Source of the DNA: Methyloversatilis universalis EHg5
GTDB lineage: Bacteria; Pseudomonadota; Gammaproteobacteria; Burkholderiales; Rhodocyclaceae
Length of the DNA: 64,000 nucleotides
Assembly: GCF_000378945.1 (NCBI RefSeq)
Contig: NZ_KB900539.1
Span: 202,168 to 266,167 of the forward strand
Reading direction: 5' to 3'
Shown piece after piece: positions 27,510-52,981 of this stretch. The stretch's first letter is position 1. Each line of letters begins with the position of its first letter. Under the pieces are notes generated by a model, which was not told the origin of the DNA, searched no databases, and saw only the letters and a list, made by a program, of their open reading frames with translations. The translations under genes and the position numbers were made by a program.

Positions 27510-28943
27510 TCAGCAGTGCGGCCCGCATCCTTCATGCGCCGATGCGGCGGTTTTCAGCCGGCCGGCCAGCGCGTCCAGACGCGGCTTGATCGCCTCGCCG
27601 ACCGCGATCTGCGGTTCCGACGGCGTGAGGCCTTCCGCCTTCTCGCGGCTGGCGACGGCCGCCCGGGCGCGGGCGAACGCTTCGGTGAATGAGGGCGTCT
27701 GGCGCAGCGCCTCGTCGAAATAGGCGCGGCCGAAGAAGGTCCAGTCCGCTTCGTGCGAACAGCCGTGCGAACTGCGGTCGGCGCGTGCGGCCGACATGAC
27801 CAGCGTATCCGGCCCGGCCAGTGGTTCGATGAACCCGCCGGAAAAACAGGCCGACACCAGGATGACCCGGTTGCGGATGCCGGCCTCGTCCAGCAGCTGG
27901 CCGAGGCGCTGTGGCGTGAGCTGTTCCAGTTCCCACGGCCACAGGCTCAGATCGAAGCGGTGGTCTTCGGCGCCGTGCGAGGTCAGGAACACGAACAGCA
28001 CGTCCTCGTCGCGATTCATCCGCTCGCCCAGCACCCGCAGGCTGGCTTCCAGCGCGCTCACCGTAGCCAGCGGCCGCTGCAGCACGGTGGCCGGATTGTT
28101 GGCGAGCACCACGCTGCGGCCGGCGGTGCCGAAGCGCTCGGCGAACAGGTGCTCCACCTTTTCGACCTCGCGCAGGAACACGTCCTGCGCGCCATGGCCG
28201 GCCAGCGCCAGCAGATACAGCTCCGGCCGGCCCGGCTCGCCCTGTTCGACCTGGGCCAGCGTGGCGGTGAGCAGGTGCGGCTGGCGATAGATGAGCGCTT
28301 CGCTGCGCGCGGCGGCCCAGCGCTCGGCCTCATCGGCATCCTGTTCCGGCTCGACCGCCTGCCACAGCGGCGCCTGCGTACCGAGTGCGATCAGTGGTGC
28401 CAGATAGCACAGGCCGACCACGGCAGGCATCGCCAGCCGCTGTTTCAGGCGGGCGCCGAACAGGTCGCCCAGCAGCACGGCGGACGCGATCACGCCCCAG
28501 GCGGCGGGGGCCCACCACACCAGATCGGTGGCGTCGTCACCGAGGGTGTCCCACCAGTCGGCGGGCAGCAGCGTGAAGCCGTTCCACAGCAGCGACAGCC
28601 AGAACCACAGCGCGCTCATCGCCACCACGCCGCGCAGCCACGCCTCGCTGCGCCCGCTCAGGCGGGCGATCACCCACACCGCCAGCATCAGCCAGGGCAG
28701 GTGGAACAGCTTGCCGGGCAGCGCCTCGGGCATGAACTGGCCGGCGCCGTCCACCCGCAGCGCGTCGAAGCCGGCGCTGGCGGCGAGGGCCAGCAGTTCA
28801 AGCGCGATCCAGGCCGCGGCACCGCTGCGCAGCCAGGGTGTGGCCCGCCACAGCAGCAGCGCCCGCAGGCCGGCGAACAGGTTGCAGCAGAGGTCGCGCA
28901 GCGGCCGCGCGGGGCGGTCGGGAAGGGCGTGCGGCTCGGTCAT
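27510..28943 (-). CDS. Membrane-anchored C13 (legumain-like) caspase-fold peptidase
   Basis: A protein of about 477 aa. The N-terminal half has five or six hydrophobic segments (for example AWIALELLALAASAGFDAL, WLMLAVWVIARLSG, VVGLCYLAPLIALG). The C-terminal half is a peptidase domain: LYLLALAGHGAQDVFLREVE, then the catalytic histidine in FVFLTSHGAEDH and the catalytic cysteine in LVSACFSGGF, spaced as in clan CD/C13. Eukaryotic legumains cleave after Asn; bacterial members are little studied. Start uncertain: ATG at 28943 or 29015, neither with a clear Shine-Dalgarno. It is convergent with the kinase/zinc-ribbon pair and divergent from ahcY. Confidence 0.82.
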   Translation of the reverse strand: MTEPHALPDRPARPLRDLCCNLFAGLRALLLWRATPWLRSGAAAWIALELLALAASAGFDALRVDGAGQFMPEALPGKLFHLPWLMLAVWVIARLSGRSEAWLRGVVAMSALWFWLSLLWNGFTLLPADWWDTLGDDATDLVWWAPAAWGVIASAVLLGDLFGARLKQRLAMPAVVGLCYLAPLIALGTQAPLWQAVEPEQDADEAERWAAARSEALIYRQPHLLTATLAQVEQGEPGRPELYLLALAGHGAQDVFLREVEKVEHLFAERFGTAGRSVVLANNPATVLQRPLATVSALEASLRVLGERMNRDEDVLFVFLTSHGAEDHRFDLSLWPWELEQLTPQRLGQLLDEAGIRNRVILVSACFSGGFIEPLAGPDTLVMSAARADRSSHGCSHEADWTFFGRAYFDEALRQTPSFTEAFARARAAVASREKAEGLTPSEPQIAVGEAIKPRLDALAGRLKTAASAHEGCGPHC

Positions 28944-42731: not shown

Positions 42732-43222
42732 GCGCCGCCGCCGAACAGGTGCAGCCTGGCGCCGGTCTGTTCGGCGTGCGCGTGCGTGTGATGCGCCGGG
42801 TGGCCGCCGTAGGCGCCGGCTTCCGGCTCGAACGGCGCCTGCGTCTCCTGCACATCGAGGCCGAGGCCGGCCAGCATCTGCGCCAGCACATGGTCGGCGG
42901 CCAGCCGCAGCAGACCCGGCTGCACCTCGACCGCGACATGGCGGTTGCCGAGGTGGTAGGCGGCGCGCGCGATCAGCAGCGCATCTGCGCTGCGTGCCTC
43001 GATCACCGACTCCGGCGCGGCCTGCACCGCGATCACGCGGCCGTCATTGCCGGCCAGCCGGTCGCCGCCGCGCAGTATCGTGCCGCGCGGCAGGAAGAGC
43101 CCGACCTCCTCGCCCGAATCCAGGCGCGTGCGCAGCCTGCACTTGGCGCGCAGTTCGAAGTTCAGCGTCAGCGTATCGGCCGGCACGGGGTCGGCCGGCG
43201 CGAAGGTTTCGATCAGCAGCAT
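42728..43222 (-). CDS. ureE: Urease accessory nickel chaperone UreE
   Basis: A 164-aa nickel carrier. It has an N-terminal peptide-binding domain ([30 protein letters not shown]) and a metal-binding domain ([28 protein letters not shown]). A histidine-rich tail follows ([13 protein letters not shown]). It is the first urease gene after the inserted restriction locus: hsdM ends 38 bp upstream. A small hairpin GTCGGG/CCCGAC lies in that junction. Confidence 0.95.
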
Positions 43223-43260
43223 GTCGGGTGAAGAGTGGGTGCCCGACTGCGGAAAAGCAG

Positions 43261-44718
43261 TTATCGCGCCAGCCCGGCCGCCACGTCGCGAAAGGATTGC
43301 AGCGCCGCTTCCAGGTGCTCGATGATTTCCTGCTGCAGCACGTCCGGCGGCGGCAGGTCGTCCAGTTTGTCCAGGCTGTCGTCCTTCAGCCAGAACACGT
43401 CCAGACTGGCCTTGTCGCGCGCCACCAGCGTTTCATAGCTGAAGTGGCGGAAGCGCTCGGTCTCCACCCGCTCGTGCCGGTTGTCTGGGCGATAGCAGGC
43501 GATGAAGTCCTGCAGATCAGCCAGCTTCAGCTGCCGCGTCTTCAGCGTGAAGTGCATATTGGTGCGCAGGTCGTAGATCCACACCCCTTTTGTGTGCACG
43601 CGCCCGTCCTTCGGGCGCGCATCGAAGAACAGCATGTTCGCCTTCACCCCCTGTGCGTAGAAGATGCCGGTGGGCAGGCGCAGCAGCGTATGCACATCGC
43701 AGGTCTCCAGCAGCTTGCGCCGTATCCGCTCGCCGGCACCGCCCTCGAACAGCACGTTGTCCGGCAGCACGACGGCCGCCTGGCCGGTGTCCTTCAGGAT
43801 GGTGACGATGTGCTGCAGGAAGTTGAGCTGCTTGTTCGACGTGGTTTCCCAGAAGTCCTGCCGCTGATAGGTCAGCGCGTCGCGGTCTTCCTCGCCGTCC
43901 TCATTGGTGATGGTCATGCTGCTCTTCTTGCCGAAGGGCGGATTGGCCAGCACGTAGTCGTAGCGTTTGCCGGGGTCGGCGATCAGTGCGTCGGTGCGTT
44001 CCACCAGCGGTTCGCCATCCAGCTCGCCGATGTTGTGCAGAAACAGGTTCATCAGGCACATGCGGCGAGTGCCCGGCACGATTTCATTGCCGTGGAAGGT
44101 CTGGTCGCGCAGGAATTCCTTCTGCCGCTTGTTCAGGTTTGCGCCCGGCCGGTTCAGCCAGTTGTAGGCGCCGAGAAAGAAGCCGCCGGTGCCGCAGGCG
44201 GGGTCGGCGATGGTTTTCATCGGCGCCGGCTGCACGCAGGCCACCATGGCCTCGATCAGCGCGCGCGGCGTGAAGTACTGGCCGGCCCCGCTCTTGGTGT
44301 CTTCCGCGTTCTTCTGCAGCAGGCCCTCGTACAGATCGCCCTTGGTGTCGGTGTCCAGGCTGATCCAACGCTCGGCGTCGATCATTTGCACCAGCCGCGC
44401 CAGCTTGGCCGGGTCCTGTATCTTGTTCTGCGCCTTGAAAAAGATGGCGCCCAGCATGCCGGGCTCCTGTCCCAGCTTGTGCAGCACGCTCAGGTAATGC
44501 GCCTCCAGCGGTTCGCCGGTACGGCTGCGCAGCGTCGTCCAGTCACAGCTTTTCGGGATGTGGGTGTTCCGGTTGTACGGCGGCTCGGAGTATTCATGCG
44601 CCAGCTTCAGGAACAGCAGATAGGTGAGCTGTTCGAGGTAGTCGCCATAGCCCACGCCGTCGTCGCGCAGCGTGTGGCAAAAATTCCAGACCTTCTGGAC
44701 GAGGGAGGATGCGTTCAT
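43261..44718 (-). CDS. hsdM: Type I restriction-modification DNA methyltransferase subunit HsdM
   Basis: A 485-aa N6-adenine methylase. An N-terminal HsdM_N helical domain ([39 protein letters not shown]) is followed by SAM motif I ([19 protein letters not shown]) and the catalytic motif [27 protein letters not shown] is typical of type I M subunits. It should act as M2S and, with HsdR, in R2M2S. Unusually it is the last hsd gene, separated from the others by a 670-bp repeat-filled gap, so it probably has its own promoter. Only 38 bp separate its stop from ureE. Confidence 0.96.
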
Positions 44719-44747
44719 GGGGTATCAGGGGTTCCGGCGAGCGCCCG

Positions 44748-44829
44748 GGATAACAAGGGCGCTGCAAGTTGCTGTTTTGGTTGTAAAAATTTTTCAGCCT
44801 AGTTTGTTATCCAGGTGGTCGGATAACAA
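44748..44829 (-). repeat. 82-bp module A of the hsdM upstream array
   Basis: Half-site GGATAACAA (44748-44756), then 47 bp, then the palindrome TTGTTATCC-N8-GGATAACAA (44804-44829). The inner 47 bp contains GCAAG and CTGTTTT at the same offsets as in modules B and C. The half-site lies about 30 bp upstream of the hsdM ATG. This is the copy nearest hsdM and the most diverged inside. Confidence 0.85.
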
Positions 44830-44932
44830 ACTGTTCACTCCGACTATCCTTCCGGCGGGCGTGAAAGCTTCCATGACAAGGCGCCCGCCGCCTGAGAATT
44901 CTGCATCCGGCGATGGCTGAGCGCGTTTCGGG

Positions 44933-44962
44933 CGAAGGTTATCAACATGTTTACAACCTTCG
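44933..44962. repeat. 30-bp imperfect palindrome in the hsdM upstream gap
   Basis: Arms CGAAGGTT and AACCTTCG flank a symmetric centre around AACATGTT; 26 of 30 positions obey the symmetry. It differs from the GGATAACAA palindromes and occurs once, midway between modules A and B. A second regulator site is possible. Confidence 0.6.
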
Positions 44963-45093
44963 AATGCAGTCATCACGATGGCCAGATCCGCTCAGCGCCC
45001 TGGATGACGGACATTGGTATGGTGTTCGCCATCGCTGCAGGCTGCGTGCTGGCAGTCCGTGTGCACGGGCGGATGGGCCATTTGCAGCTTCAA

Positions 45094-45175
45094 GGATAAC
45101 AAATTGTCAGCAAGCTACTGTTTGGAAAAACATTTTTCTGTTTCTGCCGTTGTTATCCTGCTGATCGGATAACAA
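45094..45175 (-). repeat. 82-bp module B of the hsdM upstream array
   Basis: Same geometry as module A: half-site GGATAACAA at 45094-45102, palindrome at 45150-45175, offset exactly 56 bp. Inside are AGCAAG, ACTGTTT and CATTTTTCTG. Thirteen bases after it comes the small hairpin GGTTA-N8-TAACC (45189-45206), also found after module C. Confidence 0.85.
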
Positions 45176-45188
45176 ACTTCTCTGCACC

Positions 45189-45206
45189 GGTTAGGCTGGA
45201 TTAACC
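45189..45206. repeat. Short hairpin repeat GGTTA-N8-TAACC, copy 1
   Basis: GGTTAGGCTGGATTAACC; differs by one base from the copy at 45377-45394. Each copy follows an 82-bp module by 12-13 bp, so the full repeated unit is about 112 bp. Confidence 0.7.
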
Positions 45207-45236
45207 AGACCGCCCGCTTCATCACGCTTCCCCGGT

Positions 45237-45262
45237 CTGTTATCCAGATATCTGGATAACAA
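45237..45262. repeat. Fourth GGATAACAA palindrome (isolated)
   Basis: CTGTTATCC, an AGATATCT spacer, then GGATAACAA. The central 24 bp form a perfect palindrome because the spacer is itself symmetric. It stands 21 bp before the half-site of module C and has no half-site of its own at the 56-bp offset. Confidence 0.85.
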
Positions 45263-45282
45263 CAGGCTGGCTGTCGGTTCGC

Positions 45283-45364
45283 AGATAACAATGCGCCAGC
45301 AAGTAACTGTTTCGAATGTGATTTTCTGACTGTCCCCGTTGTTATCCTGCGGGTCGGATAACAA
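45283..45364 (-). repeat. 82-bp module C of the hsdM upstream array
   Basis: Half-site AGATAACAA (one mismatch) at 45283-45291 and palindrome at 45339-45364, again exactly 56 bp apart. Inner landmarks CAGCAAG, AACTGTTT and ATTTTCTG align with module B. It ends 24 bp before the stop of the AlbA_2-type gene. Confidence 0.85.
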
Positions 45365-45376
45365 AACCTTCCGGCT

Positions 45377-45394
45377 GGTTAGGCTGGACTAACC
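45377..45394. repeat. Short hairpin repeat GGTTA-N8-TAACC, copy 2, overlapping a stop codon
   Basis: GGTTAGGCTGGACTAACC covers the TAG stop of the AlbA_2-type gene (45389-45391). Copy 1 at 45189 therefore looks like a duplicate of a segment that included the end of this gene. Confidence 0.7.
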
Positions 45395-46891
45395 GGGATC
45401 TCCACCGTCTTCCAGTCCGTCGGGCAGCAGGTCATCCTGTGCGATGTCGTCCTGCTGGGGCTTGTAATAGACCATATTGCGTTTGCCCCGGGTGGGGTCG
45501 GCCACCAGCACGCCCTGGGCGACCCAGCGCTTCAGCAGCTTTGACGATCTGAGTGTGTCCAGGCTGGCGATCCGGCACAGATCCGCGTTGCCGATCGAGC
45601 CATGGCGGTCTATCCAGTCGCTCACCTGTTCCCAGACGGGTGGGCGCTCTTCGTTCAGCAGCATGAGCATGATGGCTTCCTGCGCCTGTTCCTTCTGTTC
45701 CGAATAGAACGGGGGGAACAGTTTGCTCGCCTGCATCACGCTGAACATCATGCGCACGCCCTCGCCGGCATCGACATTCGGCGGATCGGGAAATTCACGC
45801 AGGTTGCGGGCCAGCAAGGGGTTGCGCGAGAAGGACCCGGCGCGCTGTATGGTGGCGGCGCTGATCCTGCCGGCGAACAGGCCGGGGCTTTCGATCTCGA
45901 TGCGGTTGTCGAAAATGCGGATCCGGATGTCGCGGTTCAGGTGGTAGTCGCGGTGAATCACCGCATTGGTGATGGCTTCCTTGATCACCCGCTCCGGGTA
46001 ACGGTGAACGGTGCGAAAGCCGGAGGCGGCCAGCGTCAGTCCCTCGGCCAGTTCATCCATCAGGTAGGCGTGGGCACGCGCGATCTGCTGGTACAGCGGG
46101 CCGGAAATCGTTCTCGGCGTCTTCTTCAGGTTCGGAACTTCGCCTTCTTCGATCTTGTTGCCGCGGTAATGGAACACCCGGATGTCCGCCCGTGTGCCCG
46201 ACGCCGCCAGCAGCGCACCCGGCTCGTCGGCGAACAGTAATACCGCTGCGCGCCGAGGTTTCAGCTCAGCGCCGACTTGCTGTGCCAATCCAATGCTTTT
46301 CAACTGTTTTGGCAGGTCGCTGCCTGATAGCCCCCGTGCTTGTCGGAACAGGCGCCAGGCATCGGTATCGAGCAAGTCGAAGTCGACATCAACCGGCTCC
46401 GATTCCGCACTGCGCACGCCGCGCCGGTAAGACAGTTCGGTGATTTCGGTTGCGTTCATCACCCGGTTGCTAGCCTCGCCGCGCATCCAGGTGCCGCCAT
46501 CGAGTATCGAGTGCACCTTGTCACTGCGCGGTATGACGACGCGCAGCAGGGCGCCCTCTGTCCCGTCGCGCAATGTGCAGGGCAGGCGCTGCAGCTTCAC
46601 GTCTTCCACCGCCGGCAGCAGATGTGTCGCCAGCTTGCGCTGCAGTTCGTCCACGGCTTCCGGGTTCTCGCCGATGCCGTACAGCCGGTCGCTGCCTTTC
46701 GCCTTGGCGAGGTCTTCCATGCCCAGCAGCAGTGAACCACCCTCGGTATTCGCCATCGCACAGATCGTTTCGAGCGCCTTGCCCACCATTTTTCCGGACA
46801 CGCGCTTGCATTCGAAGCGCAGGCTCTCGGGAGCCTGCAGCATCAATCTGAGCAGGGCTCGGCTCACTCCCTCCGGCAAGGCTTCATGCAT
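45389..46891 (-). CDS. AlbA_2 / RecG-like ATP-binding transcriptional regulator within the hsd locus
   Basis: A 500-aa protein. The N-terminal AlbA_2 (Schlafen-like) domain shows ESLRFECKRVSG and ICAMANTEGGSLLLGMED. The middle matches the C-terminal domain of RecG-like regulators (YPERVIKEAITNAVIHRDYHLNRDIRIRIFDNRIEIESPG, a GHKL-like core). A winged-helix-like tail follows (ERPPVWEQVSDWIDRHGSIGNADLCRIASLD). The ATG at 46891 has GGAG 8 bases upstream and overlaps hsdS by 8 bp. Such proteins often accompany type I loci, and regulatory or nuclease-related roles have been suggested. It is a candidate binder of the adjacent palindrome array; this is inference. Confidence 0.85.
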   Translation of the reverse strand: MHEALPEGVSRALLRLMLQAPESLRFECKRVSGKMVGKALETICAMANTEGGSLLLGMEDLAKAKGSDRLYGIGENPEAVDELQRKLATHLLPAVEDVKLQRLPCTLRDGTEGALLRVVIPRSDKVHSILDGGTWMRGEASNRVMNATEITELSYRRGVRSAESEPVDVDFDLLDTDAWRLFRQARGLSGSDLPKQLKSIGLAQQVGAELKPRRAAVLLFADEPGALLAASGTRADIRVFHYRGNKIEEGEVPNLKKTPRTISGPLYQQIARAHAYLMDELAEGLTLAASGFRTVHRYPERVIKEAITNAVIHRDYHLNRDIRIRIFDNRIEIESPGLFAGRISAATIQRAGSFSRNPLLARNLREFPDPPNVDAGEGVRMMFSVMQASKLFPPFYSEQKEQAQEAIMLMLLNEERPPVWEQVSDWIDRHGSIGNADLCRIASLDTLRSSKLLKRWVAQGVLVADPTRGKRNMVYYKPQQDDIAQDDLLPDGLEDGGDPG

Positions 46892-48413
46892 GCGCAGATC
46901 TCCTTTTGCGTCGGGCTGGGTCGCTTGAGACACGTTCTTCGCGCTCGGCGCGGATGCGCGCGAGCAGGGCGCTGGCCGGCTCGTCATCCGGGTCCTGCGG
47001 TACGAGCCGGCCGGAGAAGGCGGCTTTGAGGAGATTTTTGCGTTGGGCGGTGGATTGTCGAAGTCCAAGTTCAATCGACGCTTCCTGCAACTTGATCGCT
47101 TCAATCTCTTGGGAAACTCGCTCGAGTATTTCCCTTGCCTCATCGGTGGGAGGCACGGGAACGGGAAAGGCCCGGAGAATGCCCATATTGATAGAAGCCA
47201 GATTCGTCGTCTGTTTGCCCGCTTGCTGAAACCACGATTTTCCGAACGTATTGCCGTGGTGAGAAACGAACTCGGACAGCACCTCGGGTAGATAAGGCCG
47301 CATGCGGAAGACGTGGTTCTGGTGAATGCACTCCGCTACTTCGTCACGCCAAACCCAGCCCCTGCCTAACTTGTCACGATCACCACCTTCATTGAACAGC
47401 ACATCTCCGTTCCGAAGCGTCAGCTCTTCAATGTCTCGCTCACTCGCCATGATCTTCTTGGTCTCGGTAAGGTCGAGAAAGCCACGCTGAACGTTCGCGA
47501 CGCGCAGGTAGGCTATTTCGCGCAAAGAAACGCCCGGAGTCTGTTTTGATCCTTTGGCTACACCCGATACGATCTCTCCCAACATATCGAGACTGGCCCA
47601 AATCCATCTGGCAGGCAGCGATGACAGATCGGAGGTATCAGGTTGCACCGGCTCGGGATACTTCGCCTGCCACCCCTTCGGCGGCATCTTGCCCTGTTCC
47701 TCGAACTTCGCCAGTTGTCGCGCTTCCCAGCGGGCGCGGCGTTCGGTGAGGATGCGGGCGAGCAGGTCGGCGCCGGTCTCCAGGGATTCGCCGTGCGCGG
47801 CGCGCTGGGTGCGCCAGTCGGCGGTGAGGGCGCCTTCGACCGCGGCTTTCAGCAGCGATTGCCGGTACAGCGCCAGCTTCTTCTGTGCCGCCTTCAGTTC
47901 GGCCACGCCGGCGTCGAGGTCGGACAGCAGTTCTTCGAGCTTTTCGACGATGCGGTTTTGTTCAAGGCGCGGAGCGATAACAAGCGGAATCCGCTTCATC
48001 GCCGAACTCGTCAACTTAAGCCGTGTTGAGCCTGAAACATGGGGCTGGTAGTCGACGGTGTTGAGTTGATGGCACAGGAACCTGTTGTCGAGCAGAGCTT
48101 CGACACCCTGAAGTACATGCGCATGGTTATTGACCCAGAATCGGCCAGTCACACAGTACGCCTTGTCGCGAGAAGGGTCGAGGAATGGAGCTCCATCCTC
48201 TCCAAGAAGCACTCGCTCGCCTTCTGATCGAAAGTCATCAATCCAACCGGCCTGACCGGTTGCTCCATAGTACGGATAAAGCTCGCCTTCCTTTTTGCCC
48301 GCAAGACGTTTCGTTCTTTCCTCTGAATTGACCGGTTCGCGCTCGAAGTCAAGGAGCTCTACTGCGTCCTCCAATCTTACTTCGACCCAACCTTTAGGGA
48401 GTACGCGGCTCAA
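46884..48413 (-). CDS. hsdS: Type I restriction-modification specificity subunit HsdS
   Basis: A 509-aa two-half DNA-recognition protein. Target-recognition domain 1 (about residues 1-150) ends in the first helical spacer (EQNRIVEKLEELLSDLDAGVAELKAAQ). Domain 2 (about 270-420) ends in the second (AREILERVSQEIEAIKLQEASIEL). Both spacers close with the repeat QRKNLLKAAFSGRLVPQD or LYRQSLLKAAVEGALTADW. The start is TTG at 48413 and overlaps the hsdR stop (TTGA), so translation is coupled. The recognition-domain DNA looks less GC-rich than its surroundings, as is common for HsdS. Recognition site unknown. Confidence 0.93.
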   Translation of the reverse strand: MSRVLPKGWVEVRLEDAVELLDFEREPVNSEERTKRLAGKKEGELYPYYGATGQAGWIDDFRSEGERVLLGEDGAPFLDPSRDKAYCVTGRFWVNNHAHVLQGVEALLDNRFLCHQLNTVDYQPHVSGSTRLKLTSSAMKRIPLVIAPRLEQNRIVEKLEELLSDLDAGVAELKAAQKKLALYRQSLLKAAVEGALTADWRTQRAAHGESLETGADLLARILTERRARWEARQLAKFEEQGKMPPKGWQAKYPEPVQPDTSDLSSLPARWIWASLDMLGEIVSGVAKGSKQTPGVSLREIAYLRVANVQRGFLDLTETKKIMASERDIEELTLRNGDVLFNEGGDRDKLGRGWVWRDEVAECIHQNHVFRMRPYLPEVLSEFVSHHGNTFGKSWFQQAGKQTTNLASINMGILRAFPVPVPPTDEAREILERVSQEIEAIKLQEASIELGLRQSTAQRKNLLKAAFSGRLVPQDPDDEPASALLARIRAEREERVSSDPARRKRRSAHA

Positions 48414-51193
48414 GCAACCAACTCCTCATTCATTTCCTTCATCACCTCATCCAGTTGTTCGCCGAACAGCGACCACGCCTTCTGCAGCCCGCCGCGCGCC
48501 GCAAAGGCTGCGTAGTCGAAGTCGTCGCGTTCGATGCGGTAACTGCTGGCGATGTGGTCCTTGATCAGGCGCAGCCATTCGGTCTGTTCCGGTGTGAAGG
48601 CGGTGGCGCGCTGCGCGTTGTGGCGGAATATCCATTCCTGGAAGCGGCGGTCCACCTGTTCGGCGAAAGGTTTCAGTTCGTCGTCCAGCCCGAGGGCGAA
48701 GCGCACCAGTGCGATCAGGTCGGTGAGCTGGCGGCGGGTGTCGCCGCCGCTGACCCGGGTGCCCTGCACGCGGGCGTAGGCGGCCCACAATCTCTCGTTG
48801 GTGAGCAGCAGCGGCGGGCGTGACAGGGTTTCATGCAGGTCTTCGATCATGTCGAAGGTGAGCGCGCGACGCTGGTAGGGCTGCTGGTAGAAGAAGTTCA
48901 GCGCATCGATGTCTTCGCGGTGCGCGGCGATGTAGTCGGCGAAGCGGGCGATCACCGTCTGTGCCTCGCTTTCCGCCTTTGCGCTGTAGCCGGCGAAGGT
49001 GACGGTGTCGAGGTTGATGTGGTCGATCAGTTGTTCGCGTTCGCGGCGGGCGGATTCTATCTGCTCCCGCAGTTCGGGCCGGTCGAAGGGCGCGCAGGCG
49101 GCGGCCAGGCGCAGTGTGCGGGCGGCGGACAGTTCGACTTCGGTGAGCGTATCCTCGCTGCGCGCGATGTCTTTCGCGCGCGCAGTGGCAAGTGCGGTGT
49201 CGACGATGCCGTCGGGGTTCAGCGCCTTGATCAGTGCGCGGCCCAGTTCGCCGACCGGCACACCGCCGGATGCCTTTTCGATGCGCGCCTGCGCCTTGTC
49301 GTCGAGCTGCTTGGCGAGGCGCACCAGACGGTTGGCCAGCGACAGAACGGTGTCGTCGTCGCGCTGGCCGATGGCGATGCCCTGCAGCAGATCCTTCAGT
49401 GCCACGCCCGGTTTCTTTTCCAGCGGGCGGCTGTCGGTCTTCAGCGATTTTTCGACGCCGACCGCGTCGATCAGCACGAAGCGGGTCTTGGCGCTGTCGG
49501 CGCTGTTGCTCACCCTTCTCAGGTCGTCGAAGCCGAGGCTGCGCACGCCGCGGCCCTTCATCTGTTCGTAGTAGCCGCGAGAACGCACGTCGCGCATGAA
49601 CAGCAGCACTTCGAGCGGCTTCACGTCGGTGCCGGTGGCGATCATGTCGACGGTGACCGCGATGCGCGGGTTGTAGTCGTTGCGGAAGCTGGCGAGCAGG
49701 CTGTCCGGGTCTTCGTCGGTGCGGTAGGTGACTTTCTTGCAGAAGGCGTTGCCCTGCCCATACACCTCGCGCACGATCTGGATGATGTCGTCGGCGTGGC
49801 TGTCGGTCTTGGCGAAGATGAGCGTCTTGGGCGTTTCGCGCCGGGTCGGAAAGATCTGCGTTTCGACCGCCTGCTTCATGGTTTCGATCACGCGGCGGAT
49901 CTGGCTCGGGTTCACCACCGCACGGTCGAGGTCGCGGCCGGTGTAGGCCTCGTCCTCTTCGGTCTGCGCCCAGCGCTTCCGGCGCGTGAGCCGGTCGCGA
50001 TGGTCGATGAATTCGCGCGCCTTCAGCTCGCCGCCTTTCTTCGTGATTTCGGTTTCGATCTCGTACACGTCGTAGCCGACGTTCACGCCGTCGGCGACCG
50101 ACTGTTCATAGGTGTATTCGGCGACGATGTTTTCGTTGAAGAAGCCGAAGGTGCGCTTGTCCGGTGTGGCGGTGAGGCCGATCAGGAAGGCGTCGAAGTA
50201 GTCGAGCACCTGCTTCCACAGGTTGTAGATCGAGCGGTGGCACTCGTCGATGATGACGAAATCGAAGGTCTCGACCGGGATGGCCGGGTTGTAGCGCACC
50301 AGCCGAGGCTGCTTGCCCGGCTGCCGGTCGGGCTGCAATTCATGCAGCGAAATGTCATCAGCGCTGTCGTCGATGGCTTCGCCGGACAGCACCGAATACA
50401 TGCGCTGTATGGTCGAGATCACCACCTGTGCATGTGGGTCGATGCGAGGGCCGGCCAGGCGCTGGACGTTGTACAGCTCGGTGAAGGTGCGGCCGTCGTC
50501 TGGCGGCGTGTAGGCCATGAACTCCTGATGCGCCTGCTTGCCGAGGTTGCGCGTGTCGACCAGGAAGAGCACGCGTTTCGCGCCGCCGAACTTGAGCAGG
50601 CGATACACGGCGGTGATGGCGGTGAAGGTCTTGCCGGCGCCGGTTGCCATGTGCACCAGTGCGCGCGGCCTGTTCTGCGTCAGCGACTTTTCCAGCCCGG
50701 TGACGGCGGCGATCTGGCAGTCGCGCAGATTGTGCGTTGGCAGCGCGGGCATGTTCGCCGCCAGGCGGGTGCGCAGGGTATCGGGCTGGCGCAGCCATTC
50801 GGCGAGCTCGCCAGGCGTGAAGAAATGGAAGATTTCGCGCGAGCGCGGCGCCGGGTCGCGCAGGTCGGTGAAGCGGACGATCTGGCCAGTGCTTTCGAAC
50901 AGGAAAGGCAGCGGCGCCGCCTTGACGCGCCACTTCAGTGCGCTGGCAGCGTAGCGGGCGGTCTGTTCCTCGACGAAGGTCAGGATGGTCGCGTCGGCCT
51001 TGGCTTCGATGACGCCCACCGGTGCGCGGTCGACGAACAGCACGTAATCGGCCGGCCCGGTGTCGGTCGGGTATTCGCGGATGGCGACGCCATGGCCGGC
51101 GCTGAGATCAAGCTGGCTCAGGTCCTGAACGACCCAGCCCGCCTGTTCCAGCTTTTCGTCTATCCGCTGCCGCGCCTTGCCTTCCGGCGTCAT
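48410..51193 (-). CDS. hsdR: Type I restriction enzyme subunit HsdR
   Basis: A 927-aa motor and nuclease subunit. The N-terminal PD-(D/E)xK site reads PADYVLFVDRAPVGVIEAKAD. The helicase motor has Walker A HMATGAGKTFTAI, motif II IIDECHRSIYN, TATPDKR and VDMIATGTDVKPLEVLLFMRD. The C-terminus is of EcoEI_R_C type. All catalytic residues that I can see are intact, so the enzyme should restrict. It begins 63 bp after the ureC stop with only a hairpin between, so it may be expressed by read-through from the urease promoter. Confidence 0.95.
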   Translation of the reverse strand: MTPEGKARQRIDEKLEQAGWVVQDLSQLDLSAGHGVAIREYPTDTGPADYVLFVDRAPVGVIEAKADATILTFVEEQTARYAASALKWRVKAAPLPFLFESTGQIVRFTDLRDPAPRSREIFHFFTPGELAEWLRQPDTLRTRLAANMPALPTHNLRDCQIAAVTGLEKSLTQNRPRALVHMATGAGKTFTAITAVYRLLKFGGAKRVLFLVDTRNLGKQAHQEFMAYTPPDDGRTFTELYNVQRLAGPRIDPHAQVVISTIQRMYSVLSGEAIDDSADDISLHELQPDRQPGKQPRLVRYNPAIPVETFDFVIIDECHRSIYNLWKQVLDYFDAFLIGLTATPDKRTFGFFNENIVAEYTYEQSVADGVNVGYDVYEIETEITKKGGELKAREFIDHRDRLTRRKRWAQTEEDEAYTGRDLDRAVVNPSQIRRVIETMKQAVETQIFPTRRETPKTLIFAKTDSHADDIIQIVREVYGQGNAFCKKVTYRTDEDPDSLLASFRNDYNPRIAVTVDMIATGTDVKPLEVLLFMRDVRSRGYYEQMKGRGVRSLGFDDLRRVSNSADSAKTRFVLIDAVGVEKSLKTDSRPLEKKPGVALKDLLQGIAIGQRDDDTVLSLANRLVRLAKQLDDKAQARIEKASGGVPVGELGRALIKALNPDGIVDTALATARAKDIARSEDTLTEVELSAARTLRLAAACAPFDRPELREQIESARREREQLIDHINLDTVTFAGYSAKAESEAQTVIARFADYIAAHREDIDALNFFYQQPYQRRALTFDMIEDLHETLSRPPLLLTNERLWAAYARVQGTRVSGGDTRRQLTDLIALVRFALGLDDELKPFAEQVDRRFQEWIFRHNAQRATAFTPEQTEWLRLIKDHIASSYRIERDDFDYAAFAARGGLQKAWSLFGEQLDEVMKEMNEELVA

Positions 51194-51202
51194 GAACCCC
51201 CC

Positions 51203-51236
51203 GCGCTATCCCGAATCCCGGCCGGGATGTTAGCGC
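51203..51236. other. Hairpin in the ureC-hsdR junction
   Basis: Outer arms GCGCTA/TAGCGC enclose a perfect palindrome ATCCCGGCCGGGAT. It occupies most of the 63 bp between ureC and hsdR. No T-tract; it could be a weak terminator or attenuator, or a scar of the junction. Confidence 0.55.
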
Positions 51237-51256
51237 GAAGGGCTTGCCGGCGGCAT

Positions 51257-52981
51257 TCAGAACAGGAAATAGCGCTGCGCCATCGGCAGCACCGCAGCCG
51301 GTTCGCAGACCAGGGCTTCGCCGTCGGCGCGCACTTCGTAGGTTTCCGGGTCGACGTCGATCTGCGGCTGCCAGCCATTCAGCACCATGTCGGACTTGCG
51401 GATGGCGCGCGTGTTGCGCACCGGCTCCAGCCGCTTGGCGAGGCCGAGGTCGGCGATCTTCGGATTGTTCAGTGCGGCCTGCGACACGAAGGTGAGCGAA
51501 GTTTTCAGGCCACCGCCGTAGCTGCCGAACATCGGCCGGTAATGCACCGGCTGCGGTGTCGGGATGGACGCGTTCGGGTCGCCCATCGCGGCGGCGGCGA
51601 TCATGCCGCCCTTCAGGATCAGACTGGGCTTGACGCCGAAGAAGGCGGGGCGCCACAGCACCAGATCGGCCAGCTTGCCCGGCTCGACCGAGCCGACGAT
51701 GTGGCCGATGCCGTGCGTGATCGCCGGGTTGATCGTGTACTTCGCGATGTAGCGGCGCACGCGGAAATTGTCGGCGGCCGGCGAGCGGCCGTCCGGGTCG
51801 CTCAGCGTGCCGCGCTGCACCTTCATCTTGTGCGCCGCCTGCCAGGTACGGATGATCACTTCGCCGACCCGGCCCATGGCCTGCGAGTCGGACGACATCA
51901 TCGAGAAGGCGCCGAGGTCGTGCAGGATGTCCTCTGCGGCGATCGTTTCGCGGCGGATACGGCTTTCTGCGAAGGCGACGTCCTCGGCGATGGCGGCGTC
52001 GAGGTGGTGGCACACCATGAGCATGTCGAGGTGCTCGTCGATGGTGTTCACCGTGTAGGGCATGGTCGGGTTGGTCGATGACGGCAGCACGTTGGGCAGG
52101 CCGGCCGCGCGCAGGATGTCCGGTGCGTGACCGCCGCCCGCGCCTTCGGTGTGGAAGGTGTGGATGGTGCGGCCCTTGAAGGCGTCCATCGTGGTTTCGA
52201 CGAAGCCCGATTCGTTCAGCGTGTCGGTATGGATGGCGACCTGTATGTCCATGTCCTCGGCCACCGACAGGCAGGTGTCGATGGCGGCCGGCGTGGTGCC
52301 CCAGTCCTCGTGCAGCTTGAGGCCGATCACGCCGGCTTCGATCTGTTCGCGCAGCGGCGCCGGCTGTGAGGCATTGCCCTTGCCGAGGAAACCGAGGTTC
52401 ATCGGAAAGGCGTCGGCCGCGGCCAGCATCGAGTGGATGTGCCACGGCCCGGGCGTGCAGGTGGTGGCGAAGGTGCCGGTGGCCGGGCCGGTGCCGCCGC
52501 CCAGCATGGTGGTGACGCCGGACATCAGCGCCTCTTCGATCTGCTGCGGGCAGATGAAGTGGATGTGGCTGTCGATGCCGCCGGCGGTGACGATCATGCC
52601 TTCACCGGCGATGATTTCTGTGCCCGGGCCGATCACGATGGCATCGGGGCCACTGAGCCCGGGCTGGATGTCCGGATTGCCGGCCTTGCCGATGGCGGCG
52701 ATGAAGCCGTTCTTCAGGCCGATGTCGGCCTTCACGATGCCCCAGTGGTCGACGATGAGCGCATTGGTGATGACGGTGTCCATCACCTCCGCAGCGCAGC
52801 GCTGGCTCTGACCCATGCCGTCACGGATCACCTTGCCGCCGCCGAACTTCACCTCTTCGCCGTAGATCGTGCAGTCGCGCTCGACCTCGATCCACAGCTC
52901 GGTGTCGGCCAGACGCACGCGATCGCCGGTGGTCGGGCCGAACATTTCCGCATAGGCCTGCCGGCTGATGCGCGTGCTCAT
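51257..52981 (-). CDS. ureC: Urease catalytic subunit alpha UreC
   Basis: A 574-aa nickel amidohydrolase splitting urea into ammonia and carbamate. The metal site is complete: HIHFICPQQ histidines, the carbamylated lysine in [12 protein letters not shown], and the histidines in [10 protein letters not shown] and [12 protein letters not shown]. The flap is MVCHHLD, with the conserved cysteine one residue before the His pair. Ends [10 protein letters not shown] as usual. ORF71 is 7 bp upstream. Downstream, where ureE should follow, the hsd locus is inserted. Confidence 0.98.

Follow-up and report, generated by a model that had tools for sequence, protein, structure and literature searches.

This analysis bears on two questions: what AlbA_2-HATPase-wHTH proteins embedded in restriction-modification and further defence loci do, for which no described role was found, and by what means defence genes in such loci are switched or exchanged. 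In a type I restriction-modification locus of Methyloversatilis universalis EHg5, an array of repeated DNA units fills the 670 bp between a gene for a protein of this kind (alb) and hsdM, and we asked what such a unit might be for. The unit is a recurring, apparently undescribed DNA element of proteobacterial defence loci, and it ties both questions to the AlbA_2 family and, by sequence, to IHF. All positions refer to the 64,000-nucleotide stretch that was analysed (the window).

The array between alb and hsdM

The genes are arranged in the order hsdR-hsdS-alb-[array]-hsdM, all on the minus strand, and the block is inserted between ureC and ureE in the urease operon (43222-51257). Two relatives (Methyloversatilis sp. 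and a Betaproteobacteria bacterium) share the block with a diverged hsdS (44-50% identity). A genome of the same genus (L065) has the empty site, with 43 bp from the ureC stop to the ureE start, no insertion and no unit. The features of the locus are:

43261..44718, minus strand: hsdM, methyltransferase subunit of the type I system, located behind the array
44748..44829, minus strand: unit 1 (hsdM-proximal), with core palindrome 44804-44829, IHF-like box 44765-44777 and third arm 44748-44756
45094..45175, minus strand: unit 2, with core palindrome 45150-45175, IHF-like box 45111-45123 and third arm 45094-45102
45237..45262, minus strand: fourth, isolated palindrome with one mismatch and without a third arm, CTGTTATCC-AGATATCT-GGATAACAA
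45283..45364, minus strand: unit 3 (alb-proximal), with core palindrome 45339-45364, IHF-like box 45300-45312 and third arm 45283-45291
45389..46894, minus strand: alb, with SLFN AlbA_2 and HATPase_c_4 domains and a C-terminal winged-helix-like end (from Pfam, alignment and a low-confidence structure model)
45405..45430, minus strand: probable decayed palindrome over the alb 3' end, from comparison with relatives by eye
46884..48413, minus strand: hsdS, specificity subunit
48410..51193, minus strand: hsdR, restriction subunit

A preliminary description of this DNA had reported three 82-bp units with 8-bp spacers and perfect core arms, and all three were recovered at the same places. On the minus strand, which is the strand of both hsdM and alb and the natural reading direction of the unit, each consists of arm 1 (TTGTTATCC), 8 bp, arm 2 (GGATAACAA), 47 bp of filler and arm 3 (TTGTTATCC or TTGTTATCT). 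The third arm of unit 3 has one mismatch, and 29 nt separate the last arm of unit 1 from the hsdM start. The palindrome TTGTTATCC-N8-GGATAACAA with up to 3 mismatches has 4 matches in the window and 0 in 100 dinucleotide shuffles, and GGATAACAA with up to one mismatch has 12 matches, compared with 2.2 on average and at most 7 in shuffles. Across the whole 4.09-Mb genome, the palindrome (at most 2 mismatches) occurs at these four places only and the unit model finds complete units at these three only; two extra partial model matches are the same palindromes on the opposite strand. No sigma-70-like promoter was found within the array. The fourth palindrome, the IHF-like box, the overlap of units with the alb 3' end in relatives and the occurrence of units in loci without hsdM all go beyond the preliminary description.

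The overlap with alb is common among relatives. In 10 of the 13 close homologues, the 3' end of alb and the first palindrome overlap, and most of these proteins have ends of the LLSxxxDNN kind. In the window and in two further loci (L008 and L019) the overlapping copy appears to have decayed and the units lie behind the alb stop. At the corresponding place in the window (45405..45430), where relatives keep an intact palindrome, the protein ends in LLPDGLEDGG rather than LLSxxxDNN; this putative copy was recognised by eye and is not detected by the unit model.

Other repeats are scattered among the units. G/C-rich or GGTTA...TAACC inverted repeats lie near the arm-1 side of units, at 44854-44889, 45189-45206 and 45377-45394 in the window and in the gaps of L008 and L019. 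Repeated CACAGGAGCTC motifs occur between the units of L008 and L019, and a separate 15-nt inverted repeat (CGAAGGTTATCAACA / TGTTTACAACCTTCG) lies between units 1 and 2 of the window (44933-44962).

Recurrence in other genomes and linkage to alb

An exact-palindrome scan of 84,980 species genomes yielded 25 loci. Eight have an arm1-like third arm at 47-50 nt, and all eight are titled as Pseudomonadota; the other 17, from several phyla and with no third arm of the same sequence, were set aside as chance palindromes. With further loci from alb searches, unit-model searches and searches around single genes, which spanned 1657 genome look-ups (some repeated), the unit is present in 28 proteobacterial loci, including the window and one weak locus (L034/L059). 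Hits to the unit pattern were discarded if they fell in N stretches, had GC-rich arms or had arms unlike TTATC (including hits in L006, L017, L018 and L019 and at two places in the window). The second unit model was built from 35 of the 37 units then known, leaving out the weak L059 and L055:6708.

The 56-bp offset emphasised in the preliminary description is exact in the window but is not a constant of the element: in relatives the filler measures 47-50 nt and mostly 49 (23 of 35 aligned units, compared with 47 in the window), and the distance from arm 1 to arm 3 is 73-76 bp. The spacer is 7 bp instead of 8 in L053, L055 and L082. The suggestion that so regular a geometry looks functional has held, with a bound protein complex as its best reading.

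No description of the unit was found in the open literature searched. Viral contigs contained neither the exact palindrome nor the full unit pattern, and they contained no alb relative (83 stretches fitted the peptide pattern, 0 were confirmed). Plasmids gave no close alb (E<=1e-40), no match to the array and, against the consensus unit, partial matches only, none covering 80%. Two partial alb-like matches, neither of them annotated, came from phages; one, in a 2.8-kb record without annotation that carries the label Cyanobacteria phage AS-1 (DQ115807.1), encodes a stretch 67% identical to residues 16-230 of a 503-residue alb query.

Through the unit itself 21 loci were found: 8 by the palindrome scan, 3 by the first unit model and, besides the window, 10 by the later model; 5 of these 10 genomes also supplied units to the model and are thus not independent. 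Sixteen of the 21 contain alb in some form, whether a close homologue (10 loci), a C-terminal remnant (3 loci; L021, L055 and L123) or only a distant AlbA_2-HATPase gene (3 loci; L029, L054 and L124); the remaining 5 have no alb in the stretch read. Linkage of this kind is what an operator of a local regulator should show, and the co-occurrence with AlbA_2 loci that the preliminary description proposed to look for was indeed observed. In a 399-genome order sample, a unit (E<=0.01) was found in 6 of the 7 genomes with a close alb and in 5 of the 392 others, by a model trained on units of the same 6 genomes; the seventh (G039) has a weak unit of 31.6 bits. Eight distant alb loci (L037-L044, read for about 1.5 kb on each side) contained no unit.

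Over all 28 loci, 13 have a close alb, 5 a remnant (L021, L055, L123, L108 and L110) and 3 a distant relative only. The other seven (L016, L053, L083, L109, L125, L126 and L127) gave nothing to four AlbA_2 queries at E 1e-4 over stretches of 3.5-16 kb. These seven would suit an operator, again with IHF, of some regulator other than Alb that is common to defence genes, and arm variation between lineages is what a co-evolving regulator would be expected to leave. Nevertheless, it is quite unlikely that such a regulator is at work, as the units are confined to one locus in this genome and the commonest families beside units are HATPase_c_4 (14) and AlbA_2 (12), counted over 113 of 130 ORFs near 23 unit loci and commonest partly because several of these loci were found through alb.

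The alb product, of 501 residues, is a candidate binder of the arms and the likeliest specific protein of the proposed complex. The alb fragment in L055 matches MarR_2. Structure prediction for Alb is poor (mean pLDDT 50), and C-terminal helices appear in this low-confidence model. AlbA_2 is treated as a DNA-binding or nucleoid-associated domain in the available text of PMC6299218 and PMC10561277, and those parts of the two articles describe no site of this kind. A possible covariation between the Alb wing and the arms was considered and not counted: the wing reads KRN in 8 of 9 aligned proteins and SRQQARY in L035 (arms TCATTATC), which amounts to a single event.

The integrity of alb appears to follow the presence of a gene behind the unit. 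In all 8 loci with a following gene (at most 136 nt from the last unit) alb is uninterrupted, and in 3 of the 4 loci without one it has an in-frame TAG (p 0.018 by locus and 0.048 by lineage, in a small post hoc comparison that leaves out L036, cut by assembly gaps, and reads L034 to the contig end 526 nt on), as if alb were kept only with a gene to control. In L018, L034 (= L059) and L063, alb would be full-length but for one in-frame TAG, whose position differs among the three.

Arm constraint, the filler box and neighbouring genes

Across nine units of three related species, the core arms are unchanged at 162 of 162 positions and the third arms are kept at 76 of 81. The spacers of these units have a mean pairwise identity of 40% and the whole gap is 50-60% identical, and at the DNA level the identity is 85-90% for alb and, in one comparison, 91% for hsdM. 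At the level of sequence, this pattern speaks for strong purifying selection on the arms, and the decayed element that had been put forward as one possible role does not fit the intact core arms. Between more distant genomes the arms differ, with TYRTTATC as their common part, and arms 1 and 2 vary in concert (both sides altered in 30 cells versus 9 in shuffles), arm 3 changing along with them.

Correlated changes of this kind could also arise in a structured RNA, which the preliminary description had considered. Arm 2 can pair with arm 1 or with arm 3, both pairings covary, and a 3' UTR or small RNA with two competing hairpins would thus be conceivable; unit 1 and the bare palindrome do fold better than shuffles (z about -4 and -5). 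However, for units 2 and 3 the advantage over shuffles is slight (z -1.1 to -2.2), a box kept in the filler fits a DNA-bending protein, and core-pair changes read on the alb strand comprise 1 G-U cell versus 9 A-C cells, 5 of the 9 from one genus. The opposite strand may be transcribed, in which case the A-C cells would count as G-U. An Rfam search (E<=1) of 43000-47500 gave one match, outside the array and below its cut-off. Given the dearth of G-U intermediates on the alb strand and the lack of an Rfam match in the array, we rejected structured RNA as the main reading and consider it very unlikely.

The conserved box was made up of what had been noted as two motifs, GCAAG and CTGTTT, at fixed offsets. 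Their place is indeed fixed, but they are better described as a single element: in reverse complement (AAACAGnnnnCTTGC or AAACAGnnnnTTG) it matches the IHF consensus WATCARNNNNTTR, scoring 8 of 9 in all three window units. On the gene strand the box mostly reads WAWCARNNNNTTR and stands 8-9 bp ahead of arm 3. At least 8 of 9 consensus positions are matched at this place in 19 of 33 units (14 miss the threshold; in 500 shuffled-filler sets the average was 0.5 and the highest count 4), in all 4 units that were added later and in 4 of the 5 that the second model found (0 of 2000 in shuffles). These counts say more about how well the box is conserved than about IHF as its ligand, because the box was noticed in the alignment ahead of testing and the unit models include it. 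An A/T tract lies 5' of the box: among the 23 units with a 49-nt filler, the AT fraction is 0.91-0.96 at filler positions 16-18 and averages 0.70 over positions 13-26. The consensus WATCARNNNNTTR is quoted in the available text of PMC8421141 and PMC10201428, and that of PMC8421141 places the A-tract of strong IHF sites on this same 5' side. By its sequence, the conserved box resembles a site for IHF, a protein that bends DNA.

We tentatively propose, as our leading reading, that the unit is an IHF-folded protein-binding site of the alb module which controls whichever defence gene comes next, hsdM in this locus. A sequence-specific protein, most likely Alb, would occupy the inverted 9-bp arms as two protomers across the N8 spacer. 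IHF, placed on the box and A/T tract in the 47-50 bp filler, would turn the DNA back on itself, and the third arm, which repeats arm 1 directly some seven helical turns further on, would be brought to the same complex. Judged from the letters, an inverted pair, an IHF-like turn and an in-phase third site do describe a folded nucleoprotein complex. Three such complexes and one bare palindrome would then control hsdM and hence restriction-modification expression; that hsdM is the regulated gene, and with what sign, we infer. The architecture of the unit, its recurrence and its fit to the IHF consensus are matters of observation. So are the conservation of the arms, the linkage to alb and the placement ahead of defence genes in many loci, and it is these last three that make the Alb-IHF operator the best reading.

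The genes neighbouring the units are diverse. They include matches to PDC-S11, PDC-M19B, PDC-S62, a PsyrA-like gene (Pfam DNA_processg_A), type III restriction-modification genes, hsdR, HEC-01A with DUF4276 and a zeta-toxin-like gene. With PADLOC candidates such as PDC-S11, PDC-S62, PDC-M19 and HEC-01 among its neighbours, the unit offers a sequence tag for finding more defence genes. The hsdM start lies 8-31 nt past arm 3 in 6 loci (the gene being broken in one, L127), a PsyrA-like start about 2 nt past it in L060, and the starts of PDC-S11 and PDC-S62 46 nt and 49-54 nt past it. A search of 25 genomes found the PsyrA-like gene in 4, each time with a unit directly upstream. What precedes that unit varies, being alb, alb remnants or an AAA-DUF4276 pair resembling the pair in L016 (67% and 55% identity). 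In L013 an AAA-DUF4276 pair lies ahead of alb.

Several observations count against an operator. In five loci (L009, L016, L018, L063 and L083) the last unit is not closely followed by a gene on the same strand, so that a regulated gene does not follow the site in every locus. The exact arm TYRTTATC is absent from the 500 nt upstream of 12 alb genes and of hsdR, which leaves a solitary alb without an obvious target promoter. In addition, no unit accompanies the hsdM homologues (62-64% identity) on the four plasmids examined out of 17 matching records, which weakens an operator specific to hsdM. The absence of a sigma-70-like promoter from the array, the seven loci without an AlbA_2 match, the poor Alb model and the 14 units below the IHF threshold also weigh against this reading. 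The AlbA_2-linked hsdM operator array suggested at the outset survives as the leading hypothesis, but with the terminal units and the plasmid hsdM genes against it. In the plasmid relatives L129, L130 and L131 the slot ahead of hsdM is taken by a VapC-like toxin, a DUF262 protein or hsdS directly.

As the main alternative, the unit might be an att-like junction, in which the inverted 9-8-9 core is a crossover site for a site-specific recombinase, IHF and the third arm are accessory and the defence genes are cassettes, each ending in such a site. Units lie in the same orientation behind the 3' ends of different defence genes even where no gene follows. The genes ahead of them are alb, an Eco57I-like gene (L054), SWIM/PDC-S62, a type III methylase (L124), AAA-DUF4276 (31 nt behind the stop in L016 and about 6 nt in L109) and hsdR (about 170 nt in L126). 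In one genus, the unit lies upstream of the SWIM gene in G419 and downstream of it in G1149, near-identical units flank the gene in G673, and a genome without the SWIM gene has no unit; the downstream unit of G673 (L055) is interrupted by an insertion with an ORF that has no Pfam match. A junction would account both for the units at cluster ends and for the SWIM gene between direct units. The cores of tyrosine recombinases consist of inverted sites around a 6-8 bp spacer, an arrangement also seen here in the 9-8-9 core of most units and in the three loci with a 7-bp spacer. Partner sites of these enzymes have matching spacers, though not all recombinases require this; the spacers of neighbouring units differ (mean identity 0.40 in the nine units) and are near-identical only in the G419/G673/G1149 genus. 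Homology breaks between compared genomes also fall outside the core, no unit was found on viral contigs, and neither an integrase nor a transposase is among the 25 commonest of 123 families in the 113 ORFs near 23 loci. We regard the junction as possible, if on the unlikely side.

Comparison with known systems

The nearest published regulator of a type I locus that we found is RptR, which, according to the available text of a NAR 2025 article (PMC12255303), represses type I restriction-modification islands via repeated palindromic sites by the restriction-modification genes. In that text its sites are 9-bp direct repeats around TAGCTA that overlap the -10 box, and the binder is a 9-kDa dimer. 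The array resembles the RptR operator, as far as it is described there, in having repeated palindromic sites adjoining type I genes, but differs in its TYRTTATC-like 9-8-9 arms, IHF-like box, third arm and linked gene for a 501-residue AlbA_2 protein. TAGCTA is absent from 44719-45388.

The left end of a type I-F CAST, as covered in the available part of PMC10201428, likewise joins two sites of one protein by an IHF bend, the IHF site lying between transposase sites. This likeness, together with the several copies per locus, would allow the unit to be a transposon-like or Tn7-like element end, or a decayed copy of one. The unit nevertheless combines an inverted pair with a direct third site, and no second end or transposase was found, the latter among the 25 commonest neighbour families. 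In three species the arms are conserved rather than decaying, and the exact arm is missing upstream of the 12 alb genes. An element end is therefore highly improbable.

The att-like junction finds its closest parallel in phage lambda, where the order of parts and the IHF orientation resemble the core-IHF-arm half of attP. Lambda arm sites differ in sequence from the core, whereas in the unit the core sequence recurs in the third arm, 8-9 bp away from the box. In attP/attL (J02459), the recombination core is followed by an IHF consensus in the same orientation and then by an Int-binding stretch from 27814; a 9-of-9 IHF match lies at 27764-27776, 25 bp beyond the annotated core at 27724-27738, with other matches in the same 501 bases. 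The unit further differs in its 8-bp spacer, which varies between neighbours, and in the lack of an integrase among the 25 commonest families near units.

Integron attC sites lie at the 3' end of gene cassettes, always in one orientation; their sequence varies while their symmetry is kept, and they are defined by R' GTTRRRY and R'' RYYYAAC boxes. The unit lacks the R' and R'' boxes, its arms reading GTTATCC / GGATAAC, but is like attC in its place at 3' ends, its constant orientation and its varied yet symmetrical sequence. It is conceivable, though doubtful, that the unit is an IHF-dependent, integron-like joint where anti-phage genes, AlbA_2-linked or not, are put together, exchanged and regulated jointly, and that Alb acts on the site. 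If so, the unit would be the joint of a modular assembly system for defence genes in Proteobacteria that takes in type I and type III restriction-modification, HEC-01, PDC-S11, PDC-S62, PsyrA-like and zeta genes.
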